Assembly: GCF_001482385.1 (NCBI RefSeq)
Contig: NZ_CP013611.1
Location: 248,001-312,000, forward strand
Direction of reading: 5' to 3'
Source: Pseudoalteromonas rubra
GTDB taxonomy: Bacteria > Pseudomonadota > Gammaproteobacteria > Enterobacterales > Alteromonadaceae
Length of the DNA: 64,000 nt
The position numbers and the translations under genes are program-made. The notes beneath the pieces were generated by a model. It did not search any database, was not told the DNA's origin, and saw only the letters and a list, made by a program, of their open reading frames with translations. Shown piece by piece: positions 7,566 to 20,054 of the stretch (position 1 is the first letter of the stretch; every line of letters begins with the position of its first letter).

Positions 7566-8057
7566 CTACTTATATTCTGGAGAAATGGCAACTTTCTGTG
7601 CAGTGGGCAACTGAAGCTTTTCTTTTAGCTTCCAGCTTTGGTCCATGGGCTCTAGAAAAACAGTGAATGCGCCATAATGTGGCTCATCCAGAATGGCAGT
7701 GAATTCACCTGCGGCATTGGCCAGCAGGGTGACTTCAAAGTCGTATTTCTTAACAGTGCGGTGATAAAAAGATGCTTTCAGTGCATTGACTTTACTGTGG
7801 TCACCTTTGGTGAAAGTAAAGCTGATTCTGTCTTCAGTGACATCAAGATCACCATGTAAATACAAGGCTTTAGCTTTATCGAACTTGCTGAGTTCAAGGT
7901 TAATGGCTTTGCCTTTTTTGTAGTAGTCGTCGACCACCATGTCTGGGCCATTACCGACGGCAAAAATCACTAAGAAAACGCAGGCAATAATGGTAACCAG
8001 CGGAAAAAACATTAAAAACCAAGGCCAAAAATTCTTATACCAGGGAGTAGGGTTCAT
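7566..8057 (-). CDS. ccoH: FixH/CcoH family protein
   Basis: A 163-residue protein with a short cytoplasmic start (MNPTPWYKNFWPWFL), one membrane helix, then a conserved VVDDYYKKGKAIN segment and a beta-rich periplasmic domain. This is the FixH/CcoH pattern. CcoH associates with the cbb3 oxidase and aids its stable assembly. It is the first gene of the ccoH-ccoI-ccoS-TauE operon, separated from ccoP by a terminator, so it probably has its own promoter within 8058-8116. The usual partner gene ccoG is not in this window. Confidence 0.92.
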   Translation of the reverse strand: MNPTPWYKNFWPWFLMFFPLVTIIACVFLVIFAVGNGPDMVVDDYYKKGKAINLELSKFDKAKALYLHGDLDVTEDRISFTFTKGDHSKVNALKASFYHRTVKKYDFEVTLLANAAGEFTAILDEPHYGAFTVFLEPMDQSWKLKEKLQLPTAQKVAISPEYK

Positions 8058-8116
8058 AACGACTCAACAGCTTAATTTCAGTGGCAATATTCTATCTTAT
8101 TTGGGATTAAATACCT

Positions 8117-8146
8117 AAAAAAAAGCCTCCGATTGGAGGCTTTTTT
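8117..8146 (-). terminator. Rho-independent terminator after ccoNOQP
   Basis: GCCTCC-GATT-GGAGGC (8125-8140) is flanked by an A-run on the left and T6 on the right, so it can work in both directions. On the minus strand the stem is followed by a run of eight T. It separates the structural operon ccoNOQP from the assembly operon ccoHIS. Confidence 0.9.
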
Positions 8147-8175
8147 GATCTTAAATAAACTTATAATCTATTCGA

Positions 8176-9141
8176 TTATTTCTCCTGAGAGAGGCTGTAC
8201 ACGTAGGCTGTAAGCAGGTGTACTTTGTCTTCACCCAGAATGTCTTTCCAAGCTGGCATTACACCGGCACGACCATGACGTAGTGTTTCTTCAACAGCAC
8301 GTTGAGAACCACCGTACAACCAGATGTTGTCAGTCAGGTCAGGCGCACCAAATGGCAGATTGTGAGCAACTGAACCCTTACCGTCCATGCCGTGACAAGC
8401 TGCACACATTGCGAACTTCGCTTTACCAGCATCAGCATCTTTTTGGTTTACTTTACGGCCAGACAAGCCCAGTACGTATGCAGTCATTTCTTTAATGCCC
8501 TGGTCACCCAGTGCATCCTGCCAACCTGGCATCGCAGCAACACGACCTTGCAGTAGTGTTTCTTTGATCTTGTCAGGTGTACCGCCGTACAACCAGTCAT
8601 TGTCTGCCAAGTTAGGGAAGCCCATTGCACCACGTGCATCTGAGCCATGACATTGCGCACAGTTTTGTGCGAACAAACGCTGACCAATTTCAAGTGCTTT
8701 TTGATCTTTTGCCAGTGTTTCGATGTCTTGCTCAGCAAATGCCTTGAAGATAGGACCAAAACGCTCGTCAGCAGCTTCAAACTCTTTATCAAGTTGAACC
8801 CAGTGACCGTTTGCTTTGGCATCTTCAATTGCTTTTTTAGACTCCTCGAGAGACGTTACGCCCTGGTTAGAGCTTGTCCAGTTCAAAAAGCCTGCAAAGT
8901 TACCCAAACCAGGGTAAGCAGCAAGATAATAAACAGACCAGATAAATGTTGCGAAGAACATGTAAGTCCACCACTTTGGCAGTGGGTTGTTTAGTTCTTC
9001 GATTCCGTCAAACTCGTGACCACAGCTTTCGCCTTCTTCAACACCTGCATAGTTTTTCAGGTTCCAAAGTAGCAAGCCAAAGATCAGAGCCAGACACGCC
9101 AAGGTCAATACGATGACCCAAATACTCCAAAAGCTAGTCAT
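8176..9141 (-). CDS. ccoP: cbb3-type cytochrome c oxidase subunit III CcoP (diheme)
   Basis: A 321-residue membrane-anchored cytochrome with two c-type heme sites: CAQCH near residue 157 and CAACH near residue 246, each followed by a Met ligand region (AAMPGW and GVMPAW). The N terminus has two hydrophobic segments with the FixP_N signature NNPLPKWWTYMFF. CcoP passes electrons from soluble cytochromes to CcoO and CcoN. Its start codon overlaps the ccoQ stop (ATGA). A terminator follows its stop codon. Confidence 0.97.
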   Translation of the reverse strand: MTSFWSIWVIVLTLACLALIFGLLLWNLKNYAGVEEGESCGHEFDGIEELNNPLPKWWTYMFFATFIWSVYYLAAYPGLGNFAGFLNWTSSNQGVTSLEESKKAIEDAKANGHWVQLDKEFEAADERFGPIFKAFAEQDIETLAKDQKALEIGQRLFAQNCAQCHGSDARGAMGFPNLADNDWLYGGTPDKIKETLLQGRVAAMPGWQDALGDQGIKEMTAYVLGLSGRKVNQKDADAGKAKFAMCAACHGMDGKGSVAHNLPFGAPDLTDNIWLYGGSQRAVEETLRHGRAGVMPAWKDILGEDKVHLLTAYVYSLSQEK

Positions 9142-9323
9142 TTTTCAGACTCCTTTTCCTCGTTTGAGATTGTGCTGTTGTGCTTTTTTTCATCTTCAAA
9201 AATGGCATTGGCCGCGTCATCAAAACGACGTTTGCTACGCTTGCTGTATGCCCACACAACAATCACTATGAACAGTACTAAAATTATCAGAGTCAAAATG
9301 CCTCTGTATGTGCCGTAATCCAT
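9138..9323 (-). CDS. ccoQ: cbb3-type oxidase small subunit CcoQ
   Basis: A 61-residue protein with one transmembrane helix (ILTLIILVLFIVIVVWAYS) followed by a basic patch KRSKRRFDDAANAIFED and an acidic tail, as usual for CcoQ/FixQ. It stabilises the oxidase complex in other bacteria. It sits 6 bases after ccoO and overlaps ccoP by 4 bases. Confidence 0.92.
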   Translation of the reverse strand: MDYGTYRGILTLIILVLFIVIVVWAYSKRSKRRFDDAANAIFEDEKKHNSTISNEEKESEK

Positions 9324-9329
9324 AACAAA

Positions 9330-9950
9330 TTACTTCAAATGTGTGCCAAGTTGCTGAAGGTAAGCAATCAGGGCTTCCATTTCGGTTTTGCCCTTTACTG
9401 CGGCTTCAGCACCTTGAATGTCCTCGTCGGTGTATGGCACACCAAAGTTACGGAACACTTCAAGTTTCTTAGCGGTTAATTGACCGTCCAATACATTCTC
9501 ATTGAGCCAAGGGTAGCCAGGCATATTTGACTCAGGTACCACAGAGCGAGGATCCATCAGGTGTGCAAAGTGCCAGTCATCGGAGTAACGCTGACCTACA
9601 CGAGCCAGATCTGGACCTGTACGCTTAGAGCCCCACTGGAAAGGGTGATCCCAAACAGATTCACCAGCTACAGAATAGTGACCATAGCGCTCAACTTCGT
9701 CTCGGAAAGGACGGATCATCTGTGAGTGACAGTTGTAACAACCTTCACGTACATAGATATCACGACCTTCCATTTCCAGCGCTGTTAGAGGGCGCAGGCC
9801 ATCAACAGGCTGAGTGGTGTCTTTTTGGAACATCAGTGGAGTGATCTCAACGAGGGCACCAAAGCTGATGGCAAAAACCGTCAGGATAGCCATCAGACCA
9901 ACGTTCTTTTCGACGATTTCATGTTTGTTTGAAGAGTTATTATTGCTCAT
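9330..9950 (-). CDS. ccoO: cbb3-type cytochrome c oxidase subunit II CcoO (monoheme)
   Basis: A membrane-anchored monoheme cytochrome c. After an N-terminal helix ([20 protein letters not shown]) come the heme site CYNCH in [15 protein letters not shown] and the distal Met region [11 protein letters not shown] place the start at the ATG at 9950 (206 residues) because AAGGGG precedes it by 8 bases; the GTG at 9959 would overlap that site. CcoO relays electrons between CcoP and CcoN. It follows ccoN by 12 bases. Confidence 0.96.
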
Positions 9951-9962
9951 ACTCGACACCCC

Positions 9963-11396
9963 TTAAGCCATTTGCGTGTTAGCTTCGGTGGTCAAAGAGC
10001 CACTCTTAGCTGCTACAGTACGGTACACGTTGTAAGCCATTACCAGCATACCAATCACGATGAACACACCGCCCAGGAATCGCATAATGTAGAAAGGCTT
10101 AGACGCTTCAAGAGACTGTACGAAGCTGTACATCAAAGTACCGTCAGAGTTAACTGCACGCCACATCAGACCTTGCATAACACCAGAGATCCACATTGCT
10201 ACGATGTACAGAACAACACCAACTGTGTGTAGCCAGAAGTGGGTGTTAACCAGTTTAACGCTGTACATGTTAGCATGACCAAATAGTGCAGGGATCAGGT
10301 GGTAGATAGCACCAATAGAGATCATTGCAACCCAACCTAGTGCACCAGAGTGTACGTGGCCGACTGTCCAGTCAGTGTAGTGTGATAGAGCGTTTACTGA
10401 CTTGATTGCCATCATTGGACCTTCGAAGGTAGACATACCGTAGAAAGACAGAGAAACAACCAGGAAACGCAGTACAGGGTCGGTGCGCAGTTTATGCCAG
10501 GCACCAGACAGGGTCATGATACCGTTGATCATACCACCCCAAGAAGGAACAAATAGGATCACAGACATTACCATGCCCAGAGATTGAGTCCAGTCCGGTA
10601 GTGCAGTGTAGTGTAAGTGGTGAGGACCTGCCCAAATATACAGAGAAACCAGTGCCCAGAAGTGAACTACTGATAAACGATAAGAGTAAACAGGGCGACC
10701 AGCTTGTTTAGGCACGAAGTAATACATCATACCCAGGAAACCAGCAGTCAGAAGGAAACCTACCGCATTGTGACCGTACCACCACTGAACCATAGCATCT
10801 ACTGCACCCGCATAAATAGAATATGACTTGGTTAGAGACACTGGTACAGCCATGCTGTTTACGATGTGTAGTACTGCAACGGTAATAATGAAGCCCGCGT
10901 AGAACCAGTTCGCTACATAAATGTGTGACACTTTACGCTTGATCAGTGTGCCGAAGAAAACAACAGCATACGTAACCCAGACTACAGCGATTGCAATATC
11001 GATTGGCCACTCAAGTTCAGCATATTCTTTAGAAGATGTGATACCCAGTGGCAGCGTGATAGCTGCTGCAAGAATGATTGCTTGCCAGCCCCAGAAAGTG
11101 AAAGCGGCTAGCTTGTCGGAGAATAAGCGCGTCTGACACGTACGCTGTACAACATAGTAAGATGTTGCAAATAGTGCACTAGTACCAAATGCGAAGATTA
11201 CTGCGTTCGTGTGTAACGGACGAAGTCGAGAGTAAGTTAACCATGGAATGTCGAAGTTTAACGCAGGCCACGCAAGTTGCGCCGCGATAAAGACACCTAC
11301 ACCCATGCCAACGATGCCCCAAATCACTGTCATTATAGCGAATTGGCGTACAACCTTATAATTGTACTCAGTTTGTGATGCTACTGTTTGGCTCAT
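9963..11396 (-). CDS. ccoN: cbb3-type cytochrome c oxidase catalytic subunit I CcoN
   Basis: A 477-residue heme-copper oxidase subunit with about 12 membrane helices. Conserved His motifs for heme b, heme b3 and CuB are visible: [39 protein letters not shown] and [13 protein letters not shown]. The complex reduces O2 with high affinity and pumps protons at the inner membrane. It is the first gene of ccoNOQP. Regulation by Fnr is likely given the linked fnr gene and a candidate site upstream at 11590. Confidence 0.98.
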
Positions 11397-11745
11397 TTTC
11401 TGGATTCCGCTGCAATTAATGCGATTAGAAATGATTAACCTGTAATACAGGCCCTGTTTTTTTATTTCAACAAACCCGTTTGAGTTACATCCCGTGGAAC
11501 AAAACTCTCACCAGCTTGAGAAACCCTTATTTTTGCAAGGAAATAATAATTTTTTTGCAAACGAAAAGATACTACAAACACCTAAAATAATGACATCAAT
11601 CAAACTTTGTACGAGTCATTTGCTCAATGAGTACGCGAATTGCGCAATATCAAAACAAATTGCAAAACTTAACGCCAAAGGCTGGCCGAAAAGAGCAATT
11701 CCACATAAACTGAATGTCTTTTCAAGATGTCACACACTACGCATT
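11397..11745. other. Non-coding region upstream of ccoN and of the small lipoprotein gene
   Basis: This divergent 349-base region should hold the promoters of ccoN (leftward) and of the lipoprotein gene (rightward). It contains a palindrome CCTGTA-A-TACAGG at 11439-11451 near ccoN, an A/T-rich tract, and an FNR-like site at 11590-11603. An open frame to the right from 11494 crosses the region but lacks the composition of a leader peptide, and I regard it as non-coding. Confidence 0.5.
11590..11603. promoter_or_regulatory. Candidate FNR-binding site
   Basis: ATGAC-ATCA-ATCAA matches the FNR/Anr consensus TTGAT-NNNN-ATCAA at 8 of 10 defined positions, with the correct 4-base spacer. It lies 194-207 bases upstream of the ccoN start, which would need a long leader, so it may instead serve the rightward lipoprotein gene. 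The presence of fnr nearby supports it. Confidence 0.5.
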
Positions 11746-12204
11746 ATGCAGAAAATTTGCACACTACCTGGTGTTTTTTTAGTCACTTTCCTGACGGCCT
11801 GTTCAGACCCAAGTACCATTATACATGAAAGTTCAGAAAATAGTGAAAGTTCGCAAACTTCCTTGAATTGTATTGCCTCTTCTCCCTGTCAAAGCCACGA
11901 AATAACGCTCTGGAATTCAGCCGAAACACTTCGACCAGAAACCCCGTTTGGCTTGTTTCTGGACACACAAAACCCGGCACTTAAAGTTCGTGCTGCCTGG
12001 CTGGAGGGAAAGAGCATGTATATGGGAAAAATCCCCGTCTTTTTTACTTTAGAGCGAGACTCACACTGGTCTGCTGAGGTCATGGTCGGTGCATGTAGTG
12101 ACTCGGTCATGGAGTGGCAGCTGACGATAGAATTGATCGGGCAGAAGGCGGTGAAAGTAAGTGACAAAACTGTCACATTTAGCCTGTACACTACGCTAAA
12201 TTGA
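11746..12204 (+). CDS. Small periplasmic lipoprotein next to cbb3 operon (function unknown)
   Basis: I place the start at the ATG at 11746 (152 residues), where a lipoprotein signal begins (MQKICTLPGVFLVTFLTAC, lipobox LTAC). Translation from 11494 would bury this signal. The mature part is Ser/Cys-rich at first, then beta-rich, with KSMYMGKIPVFF and VGACSDSVMEW. The Met and Cys residues and the Ig-like pattern recall FixH/YtkA-like periplasmic proteins. Because it is divergent from ccoN, a role in copper delivery to or assembly of the oxidase is a reasonable guess, but I do not recognise the family. No strong ribosome site is visible. Confidence 0.65.
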   Translation: MQKICTLPGVFLVTFLTACSDPSTIIHESSENSESSQTSLNCIASSPCQSHEITLWNSAETLRPETPFGLFLDTQNPALKVRAAWLEGKSMYMGKIPVFFTLERDSHWSAEVMVGACSDSVMEWQLTIELIGQKAVKVSDKTVTFSLYTTLN

Positions 12205-12419
12205 TGTATCGCAGTTTAATACTCTTACTTAACGTTTTATGTTCGTTTACAAAACTTCTCGATTTTGCATGACTTTGTTAAGCGTTTTCACTATATTTAA
12301 CCAAACCGCACATGGCGATAACAGAATACCCATTTGGCCAGAGTCTCGTTTGACAGAACACTCACACAGGCAAATAACTATATTAAGAACAAAACGCAAG
12401 CTATTTAAGGAGACATCTA

Positions 12420-15400
12420 GTGGCAAAGCGCATAAGTAAATTCACTCCATTGGCATCCACCATTGCTTTAAGTTTGGGGCTATCCGGCTGCAGTCTTTTT
12501 GATGATGATGACAATAATGTCCCGGTGACGACCCCCCAGGAAGTTGAAAGCACGGTAACAGCAAACTTTTCGGTTGCTATATCAGGCAAGGCTGTAAAAG
12601 GTACGCTCAGTGGTGCCCAAGTGAGTGTTAAGGCACTTGATGCTCAGGGAAATATGGTTGACCTTGCATATCGTACTCAGGCGGGCGAAGAATCGGCAAC
12701 AGAGAAAGCGCTTAACACAGAAGATGCAAAGCAGAAAGCTGAAGCAAAGTTAGTTGCTTCTAACCCTGCCGACGTCAAAACAGACGCTCGTGGTTTCTTC
12801 CAATTGTTTGTTGATGAAAACTTCACTGGTCCGGTTTACATTACGGTTAAAACGACCAAAGATGGAGACGCGTTGGTAAAATGTGATGCGTTCGTTGGAT
12901 GTGGTGAAGGCGTTGCCATTGATAATGGTGATGGGATCGTAAAAGACAACGGCAAAATTGACTTTGGCGAGTGGTACAAAGATGACATTGAATTGTCGGT
13001 TGTGAAAATCATTGCTCCCAACACAGCTGCGCGATCTGCGTCGGCTAAAAATCAACCTAGCTTTGCCGATGGCGACAATAACCAGTACACAGCTAACGCG
13101 ACTATTTTTACTTCAACAGCGGTAAAGTTGCTGCTGGACGCAGCCGCAGAGCAGGGCATTGATGCAGCAAAAGTCGGTGAAGCCAGTACTCGAGTACTCA
13201 AAGCCTTGGTAGGTAACACTCAACTTGTTGCTTCTCTGACTGGAGACTTGTCTTTGGGCGGTGCAGTTGACTTCACCGATGTTGGTCAGGGCGAGTCTAT
13301 TGACGAGGGTGTACTTGCCCTTATCCAGGTTGCTTCTACTCTTCAAGCGATTGCCGGTAAAGAGGGTAAAAGTACTGATGAAGTGCTCGATACCCTCTCA
13401 GAGGATGTTGGAAGTGGAGACTTAACGCAAAGTGATACTTTCAGCAAGGTGAAAGATGAAACCTCGAAAGCTGCTAAGATTTTGGTTGCTATGGTGAGTA
13501 ATGATTTATCTGCGCTAGAACAAGCTTTGATTGATGCTGGGGTTCCTGCAGATGACGCAGCTTCAGTCGCTGAAAAAGTCAATGAAGCAAAGGACAAGGC
13601 TGTTGAAAATGGCGCAACCACAGATGATGACTTAACTAAAGATGTCGAGCAGGTTAAAGAACAGCTTGAGGATTTAGGTAACGAAGACGTTGTCATACCG
13701 GACGAAAATGACGAAAATGATGTTGCAAACGCAACGTTATTAACAGCCATCAATGCGAGCTCTTCACAGCTTGATTCAGCGGATACTGATCTGTCTCAGC
13801 TCAATACAACCTTAGCGGACGTTCAGGAACTGTCTGAAACGTTGGACACAAAAGAGCAAGCAACGGCTTACTTTGCAGCTGCCAGTCAGCTTAGCGCAAG
13901 CTTCGATGCTCAAAAAGACGTAATCGCTGCCATTTTTAGCGCTGAGTCCACAAATATCGACGCTCATATCGCAGCCGCTCAGGCACTTGTAGATATAGAC
14001 ACTAAATATCAAGCTACGCTGGATCTGGCGACAGAGTTGAAAGGTAAGTTAGAAAGTCTTGTTCAATTCAACGATAGTATTGCGACACAAGTGGCAGAGC
14101 AGATTAGTAATGCAACAAAGGCAGTGGAAGACTTTGACGTAAAACTTGAGGCTTCAGCACAAGCAGCAACGTCTGCACTTGAGTCTGCTACGACGGCAAA
14201 AGATGCGTTCACTGAGCTTGAGACAGCACTCAAAACGGAAATTTCAGCAGCGAATAATCTGGTTGAACAAATCGTTGATCTTGACTCTGCGATTGCGGCA
14301 CTTGATGCTGTGACGTCAGCCCAGGGTTCATTAAGTAACGTTGCCGGCCTATCACAAGACTTTACAACCAAGGCAACAGTGGCTGTTACGACTGCTACAG
14401 ACTATAAAGCGGAAGCAGACGCGCAGGGCGAACAGGTTGAACAGGCAACTGAAGCACTGCAAAACGCGCAACAAATTAAAGCAGAAGCTGACACCGCAGC
14501 ATCTAGTGTTACCGCTTATACCAGCGAATTAAGCACTGCTGAGGAAACGGCGCAGGAGCGCAAGCTTGCCTATGAGCAACAACTTGAAGACGATAGGGAG
14601 CTAAACGAGGCGCTTGTCGGCCAGATAAGTGAACAGCTGCAGCTCTTAAGCGTGCCTCAGGGCGAGATAACGGGTTTTGAGACTGAGTTGGTGCAGGTAA
14701 AAGAAAAAGGCACGAATACCAATACAGTAGACCTTGCGACAGAGTATTATCTGGCTGCCTTAAGCCTTCAGACGGCAGTGTCTGTTGATAAGCAAAATGG
14801 CTGGAACACGACCTTGTCAGGTGTTTCTGATAAAGCTCAGGAAATTGTCAGTTCAGCGACCGCGTTGGCGAACAGAAATAGTGAGTATACGTCTACGAAA
14901 GACAATGCAGATGCGTTGTTAGCATCAACTGAGCAAACACAAGCTAAAGTGTCTGCTTTGGTATCTGGCATTGATGCTGAAGTCAGCAATGCAGAAGCGA
15001 AACTAACCCTAGAGCAACAAATTGCAGCGGCATTGAAGCTCGCTCAGGATACAATCACTGAAACGCAAACTGCCGAGACTGAGGTTGCTACCAAGCAAGC
15101 CGAGTTCGAAGCCGCTTATAATGAGGCTCAGGCTGCGTTTAACAATATAGAAAACTTGGGGACAGCCCAACAGGCACTGGATGCAGCGGTCGCAGCGGTC
15201 GCTGCAGGCGACGCATACAAGCAAGCTGTTGCGAATTATGTTGAGCTATCCAATGCTGCTGTTATTGCAGCGCAGAACTATAAAAACTTAGTGGATAGTC
15301 GTGAAGCTGCATCATCAGTGACGATTCAGACAGATAGCGAGGATCCCACTGAGCTACTGACATTGGCCACTGAACTACAAGTGAAAGCGGTTGCTGCAAA

Positions 15401-16418
15401 TACTGAGTTTGAACAAGATTCACGTCCTGCGGAAGCTGCTGAACTACAGACGCTCTCTGAAGAAAAGAGAGATGGGTATGTCGCTGATAATGACAACACC
15501 GAAATTGGTAAGCAAGGCACAGACAAACTGGTAAACATCAGCTTTGTTACCAAAGAAGGGGCTGATGCGGTCTTTAATGCTGGCGAAATTATATACGATG
15601 TTGTGAAGGATGTCTGGGATTCAGGCTTAGATAGCGGCGTACACTCGGGTGTGGCGCCAAACTTCCCACAATGGAGCTACAGCTATGATACTGAGAGCTA
15701 TAAACTGAATTTGGAAAATACTCAGGGCGAAGAGCAGATCGATGCAACAGGGCAGGTAAACTCAGGTGCTCAGAGTAAGATCTTGTTTACTTGGTCAGGC
15801 TTGCTGAAAGCAGACTCTGGTCAGAAAATTGAGATTCAAAGTGCCGATTTGGCTGAGTGTGAACGTTGGGCGCTTGACGTTATTGCAATGCCAAATGCCT
15901 CTTGTACCATTCTTTACGTTGATGGCAGTATTCAGAAAGTTGAAGATGCGCGTGATTTTGATATTTCTCGTGGCAAGACCTTTAACGTTGTAGAGTTTGT
16001 TGATGGTCAATATGGCTTTAGTGGACACTTCTCATCCGAGGCGACGGCAGTCGATGCTCAGGGTAATCCTCTACCGCTGTTCACTGACGGTGCCATTGAA
16101 CTTGCAGACGTGACTTTGTCAGGTGATAGTGAAGGGACCGAGTTTACTGCGCATTTTGATCTGCGCAATGAAAGTGACAACAATGAACTAGGCTTGGCCA
16201 ATATTATATTGGACAACTTTAACGGATATGTATTTAAGGTCAGTTTGATCGATGAGGCTGGTCCGTTACTGGGAGATGTGTCAATCAACAATGATACGAC
16301 CCAACCAATCAAGGTTGGTGACGTAGAAGAGGTAACCAATGGCTTCCGCATCGACTATATCAACGGAGAGTCAATCGAATATACAGATATCGATTTTTTA
16401 GGCCAGTCAAATAATTAA
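12420..16418 (+). CDS. Very large lipoprotein (1332 aa) with calcium-loop module and long helical region; unknown function
   Basis: GTG start with AAGGAGAC seven bases upstream. The signal ends in lipobox LSGC (Cys24), followed by an Asp-rich linker. Residues 50-150 form a beta-domain resembling carboxypeptidase-regulatory folds (SGKAVKGTLSGAQVSV, then TDARGFFQLFV). Residues 155-184 contain Cys155, FVGCG and DNGDGIVKDNGKIDFGE, an EF-hand-like acidic loop. Residues about 437-1025 are Ala/Glu/Gln/Thr-rich and almost entirely helical, probably a long coiled coil. Residues about 1035-1332 are beta-rich. The Asp after position +1 of the lipobox is absent (CSLF), so outer-membrane sorting is expected. 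A terminator follows, then a beta-barrel gene and a second lipoprotein of similar layout. Confidence 0.85.
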   Translation: MAKRISKFTPLASTIALSLGLSGCSLFDDDDNNVPVTTPQEVESTVTANFSVAISGKAVKGTLSGAQVSVKALDAQGNMVDLAYRTQAGEESATEKALNTEDAKQKAEAKLVASNPADVKTDARGFFQLFVDENFTGPVYITVKTTKDGDALVKCDAFVGCGEGVAIDNGDGIVKDNGKIDFGEWYKDDIELSVVKIIAPNTAARSASAKNQPSFADGDNNQYTANATIFTSTAVKLLLDAAAEQGIDAAKVGEASTRVLKALVGNTQLVASLTGDLSLGGAVDFTDVGQGESIDEGVLALIQVASTLQAIAGKEGKSTDEVLDTLSEDVGSGDLTQSDTFSKVKDETSKAAKILVAMVSNDLSALEQALIDAGVPADDAASVAEKVNEAKDKAVENGATTDDDLTKDVEQVKEQLEDLGNEDVVIPDENDENDVANATLLTAINASSSQLDSADTDLSQLNTTLADVQELSETLDTKEQATAYFAAASQLSASFDAQKDVIAAIFSAESTNIDAHIAAAQALVDIDTKYQATLDLATELKGKLESLVQFNDSIATQVAEQISNATKAVEDFDVKLEASAQAATSALESATTAKDAFTELETALKTEISAANNLVEQIVDLDSAIAALDAVTSAQGSLSNVAGLSQDFTTKATVAVTTATDYKAEADAQGEQVEQATEALQNAQQIKAEADTAASSVTAYTSELSTAEETAQERKLAYEQQLEDDRELNEALVGQISEQLQLLSVPQGEITGFETELVQVKEKGTNTNTVDLATEYYLAALSLQTAVSVDKQNGWNTTLSGVSDKAQEIVSSATALANRNSEYTSTKDNADALLASTEQTQAKVSALVSGIDAEVSNAEAKLTLEQQIAAALKLAQDTITETQTAETEVATKQAEFEAAYNEAQAAFNNIENLGTAQQALDAAVAAVAAGDAYKQAVANYVELSNAAVIAAQNYKNLVDSREAASSVTIQTDSEDPTELLTLATELQVKAVAANTEFEQDSRPAEAAELQTLSEEKRDGYVADNDNTEIGKQGTDKLVNISFVTKEGADAVFNAGEIIYDVVKDVWDSGLDSGVHSGVAPNFPQWSYSYDTESYKLNLENTQGEEQIDATGQVNSGAQSKILFTWSGLLKADSGQKIEIQSADLAECERWALDVIAMPNASCTILYVDGSIQKVEDARDFDISRGKTFNVVEFVDGQYGFSGHFSSEATAVDAQGNPLPLFTDGAIELADVTLSGDSEGTEFTAHFDLRNESDNNELGLANIILDNFNGYVFKVSLIDEAGPLLGDVSINNDTTQPIKVGDVEEVTNGFRIDYINGESIEYTDIDFLGQSNN

Positions 16419-16436
16419 AACAGGCCTGGATTAAGG

Positions 16437-16464
16437 GGGAAAGGTAAACCTTTCCCTTTTTTTT
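16437..16464 (+). terminator. Strong rho-independent terminator inside the three-gene envelope cluster
   Basis: GGGAAAGG-TAAA-CCTTTCCC is followed directly by T8. It lies 18 bases past the stop of the large lipoprotein gene and 17 bases before the barrel gene start. It should cut most read-through, so the first gene may be expressed in excess over the next two. Confidence 0.93.
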
Positions 16465-16480
16465 GTTAAAAGTGAAGTTT

Positions 16481-17575
16481 ATGAAATTAAAAAAAACCTC
16501 TCCATTGCTTATTTTTCTTGGTGTTTCCTCAGTTAATCAGGCTTATGCAAGTTCCAGTGACATTGAGCTCATTCACCAGTTTCACAGCGAAATTTATACT
16601 GAGGCCCAGCCCGTTAAAGCATTTGTCGAAGATTTTGATAAACCTTTGACCCATGGCGACAGTGCTTTTACCTATAATGTGTTTGAACTGGGTATGAAAT
16701 ACAAAGGCATTGGGTTTGGCGCTCAGAGCCGATTCGATTATTTACTTGCTTTTGATCCCGATACGGCACGTTATACACACACAGAAAAAAATGATCTACC
16801 ATTTGAACGTCGTAATTATCGCTATTATCTGAGAGGTAAGCAGGCGACAACCAACGGGGTTTTTCTAAGTTACGATTTTACGTTGCTGGATGAGCGCTTA
16901 GTCATTACACCAAAGTTTACGTATTTTCAAAGTACGCACTTTCAGGATGCGGTAGTCGACGGCACCATTTTTGCGGATGAAATTGAAGGGAAATTACAGA
17001 CTGAGTACTACTTTTCCAAAGATATCCTATTTAAGTCATTTACACCGACAGAAAATCCGGAAGGGGAAGGCTATAGTTTTGATCTTGCGCTTAGCTGGCA
17101 GATCACACCTGATTTAGATATTTGGGCCGCAGCCAAAGACCTGATGTATGAGACTAAGTATGAGGGAGTTGGGTTTGTCAATGGATTTACTACCGATATT
17201 CCTTTTACAGAGAGAGAAGATGGGATAGATACAACACCGTCTGTCAGATTGCGTACCTCCGCCTATGACCAAGAAATCGAATACACCTTTGAGCAGAATG
17301 CCAGATACTATCTGGGCGTGAACTACCGTATTAACAATCAGTTTTCTACCACACTAAAAGCACGCAAGTTTATTGATGATACCTTCGTTCAGGCAACCGT
17401 ATCCTATCATTTTGGAGAAAGCTGGGAGCTATTTGGTGGGTATGAAACACATAGCGAGGCTTTTGAGTTGGGAATTAAAACTCGCCATGCAGGCATATCG
17501 GTGAAAATGGACAACCCTGATATTGAAGATGCGCATTATGTAAATTTGAACTGGTTTCTTAACTTGGCATTTTAG
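16481..17575 (+). CDS. Outer-membrane beta-barrel protein of unknown function
   Basis: A 364-residue protein with a cleavable signal (KKTSPLLIFLGVSSVNQAYA, cut after AYA). The mature chain alternates hydrophobic and polar residues with many aromatic residues (RRNYRYYLRG, RYYLGVNYRI, ATVSYHFGESWELFGGY) and ends in a terminal Phe (NWFLNLAF), the usual C-terminal signal for barrel insertion. I chose the ATG at 16481; the TTG at 16463 lies in the T-tract of a terminator. It is flanked by two related lipoproteins and is followed 10 bases later by the second, so the two are probably co-transcribed. The substrate is unknown. Confidence 0.8.
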   Translation: MKLKKTSPLLIFLGVSSVNQAYASSSDIELIHQFHSEIYTEAQPVKAFVEDFDKPLTHGDSAFTYNVFELGMKYKGIGFGAQSRFDYLLAFDPDTARYTHTEKNDLPFERRNYRYYLRGKQATTNGVFLSYDFTLLDERLVITPKFTYFQSTHFQDAVVDGTIFADEIEGKLQTEYYFSKDILFKSFTPTENPEGEGYSFDLALSWQITPDLDIWAAAKDLMYETKYEGVGFVNGFTTDIPFTEREDGIDTTPSVRLRTSAYDQEIEYTFEQNARYYLGVNYRINNQFSTTLKARKFIDDTFVQATVSYHFGESWELFGGYETHSEAFELGIKTRHAGISVKMDNPDIEDAHYVNLNWFLNLAF

Positions 17576-17585
17576 GGGGTAAAAG

Positions 17586-19499
17586 GTGCAAAAAATCAAT
17601 AAAATCTTACCTTTGTTGTTGGCTGGTACTTTAACCGCATGTGGTGGAAGTAGTGACCCGGCCCCGACTGTGAACGATGCTGAGCCTGGGCTTGGCCATG
17701 ATGTTACTCAAGTTCCTTCAGCGTCTGCGGCTTTTTATGTGCCCAAATTTGCTGATACCTCAGGGACATTGACAGTCACTCAGGTCAGTTCAAGGGAAAC
17801 ACAGCAGTTTACCGTTAACGATCTAAATCAAATGACCATCGCCCTGGACGCAGGCAGGGTGTATCAATTTGAGTTTAGCCCAAGCTCCGAACAAGTATTC
17901 TGTCCCAGAAAGCTGGGATGTGGCCGAGCTCTGCGTGACGATCCAAATGACCTTAATGGCAACGATGAAATTGATTTCGGCGAACCTGTCTCTGCGAATG
18001 TGTCATATTCTCTGGCAGCGAAACTCATTGCCGGCCAAAATCAGCTGTATTTCTCTTCTTACGCAACATTGCTGAGCGAATCGCAGTCAGACAGTACAGT
18101 ATTGTCTTTGACGAATACACCGGTTTATCACCTGAGTCACAGTCGTATCAATCAGTCATTGCAAGCAGAGTATGCTGCCAGAGCATTTACATATGCGGAT
18201 ATCATGAGGCAGCTAAATATAGAGGTGCGTCAGGATGACCAGATATCCCCCCTGGCTGATGCCTTTGAGCTCGCTTATAAGCACAGCGACAATACGCTTT
18301 GGCAAAGCTATATTGACGAAGTCAATCAGTACTTCATAGAAACACTGTTGGACGAGAAGGACAGCATACTGTTTGCCAATGTTGTCGAACAGGTGCTACT
18401 GAATGCCAATGAAGCATTGCAATTGCAAGATATGGTAACGCTGGCAGACTCTGAGACAGTGTTTAACAATGACTTGCTTGATCACTTCAGGGATTCTCTG
18501 GGCGTAGTCCGCCTTCAGGAGGAAAAATACAGTGATGAACTGGATATCAAACTGCGCGAGATAGAGAATCTTGCTACTGATGAAGCTGTACAAGAGTCGT
18601 TTTTGGCTCTTTCAGAGGCGATCTACAATGTTGTTGATGCTGTGTCTCCAGCCCGCAACTCTGAACCTGGTAATTATCAGGTTAATGATCTCGATATAGT
18701 ATATACAATAGATCCGTCGTTCAACTGGCGAGTAACTGGGTTCAATAGAGGGTTTGAAGTCAGTATTGACGTCACTATGCCCGAGTGGCGTAAAAGCCCA
18801 ACTTTGGGCGACCGCATCGCTGGGAGTGGTGTTGCATCTGTGCGTAAAGGTGACGTGTCTTTAGAAGCTGACTTGGACGATATCTTTTTATTGTTCGATG
18901 GCTCTATTGATGATGAAAACCTGAAAACGGCCACAGGCACTTCGCGTTTTGCAGGGAAGATCACCTTACAAACATCAGCCTCGACTACTAAAGCGGATAT
19001 GAGATTACGTTTAAATCGGGTAATGTCTCCTCGCAATTCGGTTGAAAGTATCCTTGCCAATCTGCGTGTACGTGGTGACTTTGAAACTGCCAATCAGATA
19101 ACACCTGTGACTTTGTATGCTGCTGAACGATCTCCCTTTGAGTTCGATACCAGCCTGGATTTAGCATTCGGGTTACATGTCGACTTTGATCTCAAAGGCG
19201 GTCCTGATTTTCAATTACAGCTGGCTGTTGATGATCCCAGCAATGTCACAAATTTGAACTCTGCTGAGATCAGCTACCTTCTCGGTGGCAGGGTTATGCA
19301 ACTTGATGTGCGCCGCTCTGGAGACAACAATAACATTGTTGCGCAAGGAAAAGATGGATACTGGCTGGATATAAAACAAAAGGGTCGTAATTTCACAGGG
19401 GGTTATTATTACGGTGACCAGCAAATCGGTGACGTGAAAACGGTACGAGGGATCCCTGGTGTTTTATTCCCGGATGGGAGTTTTGAATCCCTGTTCTGA
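17586..19499 (+). CDS. Lipoprotein (637 aa) sharing a Cys/GCG/calcium-loop module with the upstream large lipoprotein
   Basis: GTG start with AGGGGG about 7 bases upstream. The signal ends in lipobox LTAC (Cys19), followed by a Gly/Ser/Asp linker. Residues 50-100 are beta-rich. At residues 106-133 are Cys106, KLGCG and DLNGNDEIDFGE, a near-perfect 12-residue EF-hand loop (D122 to E133). Residues about 160-350 are helical, and residues about 362-637 form a beta-rich C-terminal domain. The order of parts matches the 1332-residue lipoprotein at 12420, with a much shorter helical middle. I do not recognise the family. A terminator with a TTCG tetraloop follows. Confidence 0.82.
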   Translation: MQKINKILPLLLAGTLTACGGSSDPAPTVNDAEPGLGHDVTQVPSASAAFYVPKFADTSGTLTVTQVSSRETQQFTVNDLNQMTIALDAGRVYQFEFSPSSEQVFCPRKLGCGRALRDDPNDLNGNDEIDFGEPVSANVSYSLAAKLIAGQNQLYFSSYATLLSESQSDSTVLSLTNTPVYHLSHSRINQSLQAEYAARAFTYADIMRQLNIEVRQDDQISPLADAFELAYKHSDNTLWQSYIDEVNQYFIETLLDEKDSILFANVVEQVLLNANEALQLQDMVTLADSETVFNNDLLDHFRDSLGVVRLQEEKYSDELDIKLREIENLATDEAVQESFLALSEAIYNVVDAVSPARNSEPGNYQVNDLDIVYTIDPSFNWRVTGFNRGFEVSIDVTMPEWRKSPTLGDRIAGSGVASVRKGDVSLEADLDDIFLLFDGSIDDENLKTATGTSRFAGKITLQTSASTTKADMRLRLNRVMSPRNSVESILANLRVRGDFETANQITPVTLYAAERSPFEFDTSLDLAFGLHVDFDLKGGPDFQLQLAVDDPSNVTNLNSAEISYLLGGRVMQLDVRRSGDNNNIVAQGKDGYWLDIKQKGRNFTGGYYYGDQQIGDVKTVRGIPGVLFPDGSFESLF

Positions 19500-19577: not shown

Positions 19578-20054
19578 TTGAATAAAAGCCATGTTATTGA
19601 ACATTTAAGGTTTGCGTTGGAATGCAAGCTGCAGGAGGCACAAGAGGCCGCGGATAGTGCCCGTGCCGATGCTATCCATGAACAAAGCGCTGCGGAAACT
19701 CAGTATGATTCATTAAGTATTGAGTCTGGCTACCTTGCCGAAGGACAGAGCGAGCGGGTCGATCAGGCGCATAAAGCCATTCAGGCATTTGAGCAGACGT
19801 ATACCTTAAGTCGTCCCGATGTTGTTCAGGTGGGGGCACTGGTTGAGTTGGTTGACGAGCAGGGTCAGCATCATTGGTTTTATGTCGGCCCCTGCGAAGG
19901 CGGATTAAAAGTGATTTTGGGCACCACAGAGGTGAGAGTGATCACGCTTGCGTCTCCTATCGGCCTGGCCCTCCGGGGGCGTGACCTGGGTGAAGAGATT
20001 GAATTTAATTTCAATGGCACAACGCAATGGCTGGAGCTACTTGAGTTACAGTGA
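19578..20054 (+). CDS. GreA/GreB-like C-terminal domain protein
   Basis: A 158-residue cytoplasmic protein from a TTG start with GAGGG about 8 bases upstream. Residues 1-75 form an antiparallel helical hairpin (ALECKLQEAQEAADSARADA, then SIESGYLAEGQSERVDQAHK). Residues 85-158 resemble the FKBP-like domain of GreA/GreB (VGALVELVDEQGQHHWFYVG, then ASPIGLALRGRDLGEEIEF). GreA and GreB rescue backtracked RNA polymerase through acidic residues at the hairpin tip; those are not clearly conserved here (HEQSAAE), so cleavage activity is uncertain. It converges tail-to-tail with the GlxA-type regulator, whose stop codon abuts its own. Confidence 0.78.
   Translation: MNKSHVIEHLRFALECKLQEAQEAADSARADAIHEQSAAETQYDSLSIESGYLAEGQSERVDQAHKAIQAFEQTYTLSRPDVVQVGALVELVDEQGQHHWFYVGPCEGGLKVILGTTEVRVITLASPIGLALRGRDLGEEIEFNFNGTTQWLELLELQ

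Follow-up and report, generated by a model that had tools for sequence, protein, structure and literature searches.

The stretch of DNA analysed here (the window, 64,000 nucleotides of Pseudoalteromonas rubra; assembly GCF_001482385.1, contig NZ_CP013611.1, positions 248,001 to 312,000 of the forward strand) carries a trio of genes, here called A, B and C, which encode two lipoproteins on either side of an outer-membrane barrel. As judged by sequence comparison, this trio is one branch of a lipoprotein–barrel gene pair that is scattered through the Gammaproteobacteria. The sequences of the distant lipoproteins of the pair and that of C clearly have a C-terminal tail in common; for A the tail is weak.

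The A–B–C trio and its co-occurrence

An earlier note, made from the sequence of the window alone, had described a three-gene envelope cluster, and the three open reading frames (ORFs) on the + strand are confirmed. Gene A (12420..16418, with a GTG start by ORF call) encodes a lipoprotein of 1332 residues with the lipobox LSGC, and gene C (17586..19499, also called from a GTG) a lipoprotein of 637 residues with the lipobox LTAC. Between them, gene B (16481..17575) encodes an outer-membrane barrel of 364 residues with 14 strands in the model; its ORF is open from 16463 (16463–17575, 370 residues), the ATG at 16481 being the likelier start. Many relatives of A begin with MAKR. The protein searches gave at least 14 matches for C and at least 94 for A, numbers that are lower bounds because only the candidates with the most words in common were scored; proteins of P. 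rubra stand closest to C among the matches listed.

In one set of 119 related genomes, our searches matched C in 29 genomes, B in 33 and A in 29. The same 29 genomes hold A, C and a close B, and none of the 119 has only part of the trio at close similarity, which speaks strongly for the cluster in the co-occurrence test that the earlier note had put forward. The order A–B–C on one strand is found in all 29 trio genomes (from the listed coordinates), six of which also hold a distant second copy of B. The remaining four B matches (22–28 % identity) are members of the wider barrel family. The distribution of the trio is clade-limited, the 29 genomes belonging to one genus.

A wider family of lipoprotein–barrel pairs

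In 30 of the 33 barrel loci outside the trio, the gene immediately upstream of the barrel, on the same strand, encodes a lipoprotein, in most cases a large one, that carries the tail. The last 12 of these loci (four found by the tail and eight by the barrel) are in no tail alignment, and the distant second B copies of three genomes (G033, G059 and G061) were left out of the loci read. At the first distant-B loci, one of which belongs to the genome of the window, a lipoprotein of 644–1215 residues directly adjoins the barrel in 7/7 cases.

With the barrel profile, 15 of the 274 class genomes searched, from 14 genera, gave a match, and these barrels, down to about 20 % identity with B, mostly still adjoin a tail lipoprotein. 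Fifteen stretches from the class were read, one of which (L067) has no barrel ORF; in 12 of the 14 that do, one or two lipoproteins of 487–1067 residues are encoded directly upstream on the same strand, and two loci (L056 and L064) have two lipoproteins and one barrel, as in the window. The tail profile picked 13 of the same 274 genomes, 12 of them with the barrel. Among 197 genomes of the order, separate tail and barrel searches pick the same eight genomes, and neither tail nor barrel is found in the other 189; four of the eight, which are in no alignment, were found by the tail, and all four have the tail gene directly upstream of the barrel. In the order to which genome G315 belongs, the barrel is present in 10 of 24 genomes, and seven of the eight new barrel-found loci have the tail gene directly upstream. 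The distances between barrels and between tails are correlated (Mantel r 0.79, 0/5000 permutations). In a sample of the phylum, 1 of 299 genomes gave a match, that of the window itself, the spread of this sample over classes not being shown; the absence of the pair outside the Gammaproteobacteria is only suggested.

The genome of the window itself also has a second, distant-type pair (G000 contig 2, about 775618–780313, corresponding to 7619–12314 of locus L023) with proteins of 1173 and 360 residues, the lipoprotein carrying CDAPAGCG. Two further loci have interrupted genes: in L088 (1609–3804) the tail lipoprotein is split into two frames adjoining an intact barrel, and in L074 (5974–8724, genome G752) the barrel frame of the pair is broken by one in-frame TGA.

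The C-terminal tail

The tail model rests on 21 distant lipoproteins, of which the last 100 residues were used, and includes no window-type sequence. It replaced an earlier model from seven lipoproteins that was weak on C (best domain of window C, 4.6 bits). The tail of C (19197..19496, + strand, ending in FPDGSFESLF) matches the 21-member model with 28.6 bits (full-sequence E value of 1.5e-8) and with an hhalign probability of 97.2 %. Moreover, all 41 C-type rows match with 18.3–33.8 bits, each match ending at the last residue; overlapping loci contribute some of these proteins more than once. None of 541 reversed sequences scored above 4.3 bits, and no unrelated ORF above 4.5 bits. The usual ending in the tail alignment is I-x-[YF]-x-D-G-[ST]-x-E-[ST]-L.

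For the last 100 residues of A (16116..16415, + strand) the evidence is weaker than for C: the hhalign probability is 82 % against the distant tails, or 88.8 % against C plus the distant tails, and the matched part stops about 15 residues before the stop codon. The tail model reports 22 of 26 A ORFs or C-terminal fragments from the loci, all in the last 120 residues. When windows of 100 residues were slid along each family, the last one stood out in both, with 97.2 % for C (others at most 16.1 %) and 82.1 % for A (others at most 3.2 %); column-shuffled controls (30 each) did not exceed 4.34 % for the C tail and 1.06 % for the A tail. Neither known families nor structures gave a usable relative of the tail: in Pfam, 17 families each matched one member at an E value of 0.1, which we attribute to chance, and the comparison of sequences with solved structures gave three weak rows, the best with an E value of 0.098.

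The N-module and the calcium-type loop

A second stretch in common, the N-module, lies near the other end of the lipoproteins. In A it spans residues 50–200 approximately (12567..13019, + strand, by profile match), with CDAFVGCG at 155–162 and IDFGEWYK at 180–187; in C it is a β domain in the model, with CPRKLGCG, at residues 44–155 (17715..18050, + strand). With signal peptides removed, the N-module profiles gave probabilities of 99.0 % for A against the distant lipoproteins, 89.7 % for C against them and 86.5 % for A against C. The distant profile was made from 17 of the 21 distant lipoproteins, four being omitted as cut short or lacking the module; 60 column-shuffled controls (30 of A and 30 of C, run against the distant profile and not for the A–C pair) reached at most 0.43 %. 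The shared stretch runs from GxAxKGxLxxAxV, seen in A and the distant members only, to Cys-x4-GCG...FGE. Cys-x4-GCG occurs at A155 and C106, and IDFGE at A180 and C129; the spacing given in the earlier note, Cys-x5/6, is incorrect, the actual motif being Cys-x2-[FK][VL]-GCG. The best BLASTP match between A and C (with filter and composition adjustment off) is the GCG–IDFGE stretch (26 % over 109 residues, E value of 8e-4); the second-best (E value of 0.021) is out of register.

The calcium-type loop lies in the segment that separates GCG from FGE, which is shorter in many distant members. The 12-residue EF-hand-like loop of C, DLNGNDEIDFGE (residues 122–133, 17949..17984, + strand), has invariant columns in the alignment of the C family, and the canonical form D-x-N-x-N-x-x-I-D-x-x-E, allowing D at position 3 and L at position 8, is found in 32/32 distinct C-type proteins. 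Of the 94 A-type proteins, no more than 16 show the loop even in a loose form, whereas all 94 keep [IV][DE]F[GDN]EWY. The earlier note had assigned such a loop, and possible calcium binding, to both lipoproteins: this holds for C, in which the loop is canonical and calcium binding is plausible, but not for window A, which lacks the canonical loop. As in EF-hands and dockerins, the C loop D-L-N-G-N-D-E-I-D-F-G-E keeps the 12-residue spacing, which is absent from window A; in contrast to them, the model of C has short strands around the loop and no flanking helices, so that it is not a helix–loop–helix. Elsewhere in the family, the N-terminal part of the tailed lipoprotein of L064 (6579–8873) has a collagen-like Gly-x-x stretch between two calcium loops of the DxNRNGxLDxxE type.

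The barrel and the other parts of the lipoproteins

The model of B is an FadL-like barrel with 14 strands, as counted from a strand list in which some short pieces were merged or omitted. Its first strand begins at residue 28, preceded only by a signal-peptide-like stretch, which leaves no room for a hatch or a TPR domain. Conservation is highest in those stretches between strands that are placed on the outside (mean 0.448), followed by the strands (0.413) and the inner turns (0.292), the assignment of inside and outside being itself an inferred one. These outside stretches make up 112 of the 364 residues and contain 22 of the 40 most conserved positions (p of 6e-4, or 1.4e-3 without the N-terminus).

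The helical middle of A (residues 431–1020 approximately, 13710..15479, + strand) looks like a rod or spacer by its composition, with 19 % Ala, 0.5 % Pro and a net charge of −66. In the A family the lengths range from 987 to 1797 residues, and in five genomes the relative of A aligns with window A only before residue 705 and after residue 1020, approximately. The rod or spacer proposed in the earlier note is thus plausible, in view of this variable length and the unmatched middle, although judged from composition only. Weak matches of A to SMC and TPR_MLP1_2 were put down to helical composition.

In the model of C, the N-module is followed by a helical middle (residues 158–352, 18057..18641, + strand) and a β-rich C-terminal part (residues 362–635, 18669..19490, + strand) with long antiparallel strands, a mean predicted local distance difference test (pLDDT) score of 74 and weak fold matches. 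Nine apoA-I rows in the sequence comparison of C with solved structures (best E value of 0.0053) reflect amphipathic-helix composition. A β-rich domain common to the C-terminal parts of A and C, supposed to begin at IY-[DN]-VV (IYDVV at A1058 and IYNVV at C346), had also been claimed; as the last 300 or so residues of the two proteins fail to align as a whole (hhalign 0.85 %), we dropped homology over the whole C-terminal domain.

The A–B hairpin and the flanking genes

Absent from the account of the earlier note, like the wider pair family, is a strong hairpin with 12 predicted pairs, followed by a T run, in the gap between A and B (16433..16460, + strand). Each of the 21 distinct A–B gaps, which come from 21 of the 29 trio genomes, has a predicted hairpin, with z from −2.4 to −8.0 against 200 base shuffles each. 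The stem sequences differ between genomes, and the T run is frequent but not constant. The natural reading of these sequences is a partial terminator or 3′ stabiliser, which would give more A than B and C.

The trio sits between a small putative lipoprotein gene adjoining ccoN (11494–12204, no family match) and a gene for a 158-residue protein with a GreA/GreB C-terminal domain (19578–20054; 27.2 bits for a cut-off of 26.9). All ten of the relatives without the trio that were examined have a match to the small lipoprotein next to ccoN, and in two of them the GreA/GreB-like gene is at the same place. In these two relatives the matches to the flanking genes are 53 and 19 nucleotides apart where the window has the trio, so the trio would have been gained or lost as a unit; of the two flanking genes, the remaining eight relatives show the ccoN-side one alone within the stretch read. 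B has no match in the plasmid collection.

A possible outer-membrane module

The window trio would be a two-client version of the lipoprotein-plus-barrel pair. We tentatively read A, B and C, at what we would put a little short of an even chance, as one outer-membrane module in which the tail binds B and the clients are displayed outside or across the membrane. B would be a dedicated 14-strand barrel and A and C its lipoprotein clients, A being the long one of variable length and C the shorter one with the calcium loop. Both would take the usual lipoprotein pathway to the outer membrane, as we infer from the lipoboxes (present by rule in 32 of 37 lipoproteins; among the other five are a gene truncated at the end of a contig and some with doubtful starts). 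The C-terminal tail of each client would then bind B, most likely on its conserved long loops, and this binding would put the rest of the lipoprotein outside the cell or hold the lipoprotein across the membrane. The tail is shared by the distant lipoproteins, by C and, weakly, by A, and in the genomes searched it occurs almost only with the barrel, which makes it the foremost candidate for the contact with B. The conserved long loops of B suggest contact on the outside, which points to surface display, as in the published accounts of Slam and BamG–BamH; surface display is probably the purpose of such a complex. That A and C are paralogues assembling with the barrel, as the earlier note had it, has genetic support in the co-occurrence and the N-module, the tail being less sure. 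Calcium binding, and an excess of A over B and C, would be further features. A bolder version, possible but on the doubtful side, would make the barrel a new lipoprotein exporter or display platform of the Gammaproteobacteria, in structure nearer to FadL and PorV than to Slam, with the tail as a sorting handle that brings diverse cargo to the cell surface; we are equally hesitant about the cargo itself, which would consist of calcium-loop domains, long helical rods and large β domains.

Several results weigh against such a module. At an E value of 10, the tail model reports only 31 of 95 full-length A-type rows (30 of the 31 in their last 120 residues), window A not among them; the best A tail scores 13.3 bits and the C-terminal fragment of window A 10.4, and the tail profile misses A in the window's own genome at an E value of 1. 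Direct comparison of the A tail with the C tail gives only 0.34 %, so that their kinship rests on the distant intermediates. Within the class, two loci from one genus (L065 and L066, genomes G322 and G195) have an intact barrel and no tail lipoprotein, another genome (G170) has a weak barrel match of 70 residues (E value of 3.8e-6) with no barrel ORF in the stretch and no tail, and one tail genome (G224) has a weak match (E value of 2.3e-6) and no barrel found. Since the class tail profile held the tails of the genomes in which it found them, only the near-absence of other tails is independent evidence, and the sampled genomes cluster by phylogeny, the eight of the order representing three genera. 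One locus (L095) has a broken barrel without a tail lipoprotein, and G315 has three tail lipoproteins for one detected barrel. Among distant pairs the Mantel r is 0.39 and nearest neighbours agree in 8 of 28 cases, so no specific co-evolution is demonstrated. Finally, the terminator scan overall was no better than shuffles (6 sites versus 6.4).

Some of these loci have features of their own. The barrels of L065 and L066 adjoin a gene beginning MHIHILGICGTFMGG, which we take to be Mpl-like, and a similar gene lies near the pair in L029. The weak tail-like match of G224 (L077, G224:C1:264893-265102) is inside an open frame of 18106 codons. In L095 (3877–4779) the broken barrel frame starts, by eye, with residues resembling the helical part of a lipoprotein, and the locus looks like a deletion remnant. 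One of the extra tail lipoproteins of G315 is at a contig edge and the other has no adjoining barrel, so that a barrel may also serve clients whose genes lie elsewhere.

The module has to be weighed against other ways in which the three proteins could work. The tail might enter B from the periplasm and plug or gate it, the lipoprotein remaining wholly periplasmic. LptE plugs or gates LptD from that side, outer-membrane lipoproteins are by default anchored in the inner leaflet, and the adjoining lipoprotein and barrel genes at 30/33 loci would also be expected of a plug; the conserved positions of B, however, fall in the long loops on the presumed outer side and the short periplasmic turns are the least conserved, and we regard this arrangement as unlikely. 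Similarly improbable in our view is that B, as an FadL-like channel, takes up or exports a hydrophobic compound or a lipid, with the lipoproteins as accessory or shuttle proteins having lipid-binding β folds.

Least probable of all, and in our opinion very unlikely, is that these envelope genes are merely co-transcribed and move together, their products acting separately. The same strand, the short gaps and the restriction of the trio to one genus would suit such genes. Against this, the barrel is found in 14 genera of the class sample, with members no more than about 20 % identical to B, and mostly still adjoins a tail lipoprotein, and the tail is found almost only with the barrel (in 12 of 13 class genomes and in 8/8 order genomes).

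The routes by which lipoproteins reach the surface in the Gammaproteobacteria are understood for few systems. The pair ties large lipoproteins of marine bacteria, mostly annotated as hypothetical, to a membrane partner and suggests an undescribed way to mount large proteins on or through the outer membrane. If our reading of A, B and C as one module is true, candidate surface proteins could be listed by means of the tail, which is recognisable in sequence, and the pair would offer a simple two-gene test system.

Comparison with known systems

The earlier note could not name the families of A, B and C. Pfam and NCBIfam give no usable match, and no curated family covers any of the three. The barrel profile likewise has no match by sequence among solved structures. 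We found no description of the lipoprotein–barrel pair in the titles and opening lines of abstracts of the literature searched, which lacks most subscription journals, and the pair is apparently undescribed. One Pfam family, DUF5723 (PF18990), is matched by 7 of 27 barrels at an E value of 0.01 or better, window B not among them; the barrel of L054 exceeds the curated cut-off (36.6 versus 26.8 bits). At the level of sequence this is probably a distant superfamily link, with no function to borrow, because the literature searched makes no mention of DUF5723.

With FadL, B shares the 14-strand barrel of the model, but it has no FadL/Toluene_X match in Pfam, and the model offers no room for the N-terminal hatch that FadL has inside its barrel. 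As to type IX secretion, no PorV-type or C-terminal sorting-domain match was found in NCBIfam for A, B, C and nine distant proteins. The fold of B does resemble that of PorV, but the barrels of OmpG (up to 13.6) and of autotransporters (up to 13.7) come close to the scores of the type IX chains, so that this likeness is not specific. In BamG of the Bacteroidota BAM, the loops touching BamH are not conserved, according to PMC12578637, whereas the long loops of B are.

The DUF560 network combines a 14-stranded outer-membrane barrel with client lipoproteins that share a C-terminal targeting domain and have variable N-terminal parts, and the DUF560 protein NilB has a periplasmic TPR domain, as stated in PMC8406197. 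In the B model there would be no room for such an N-terminal periplasmic domain; no DUF560 match was found in Pfam, for B at an E value of up to 1 and for 27 barrels at 0.01; an eight-strand barrel fold is not established for the tail; and Slam is absent from the structure matches shown for B, which does not exclude a family outside those shown. The pair fails tested defining features of Slam, FadL and PorV, and yet it resembles known lipoprotein–barrel systems: the gene logic is that of Slam/DUF560/TXISS, with a barrel gene next to lipoproteins that have a C-terminal domain in common.

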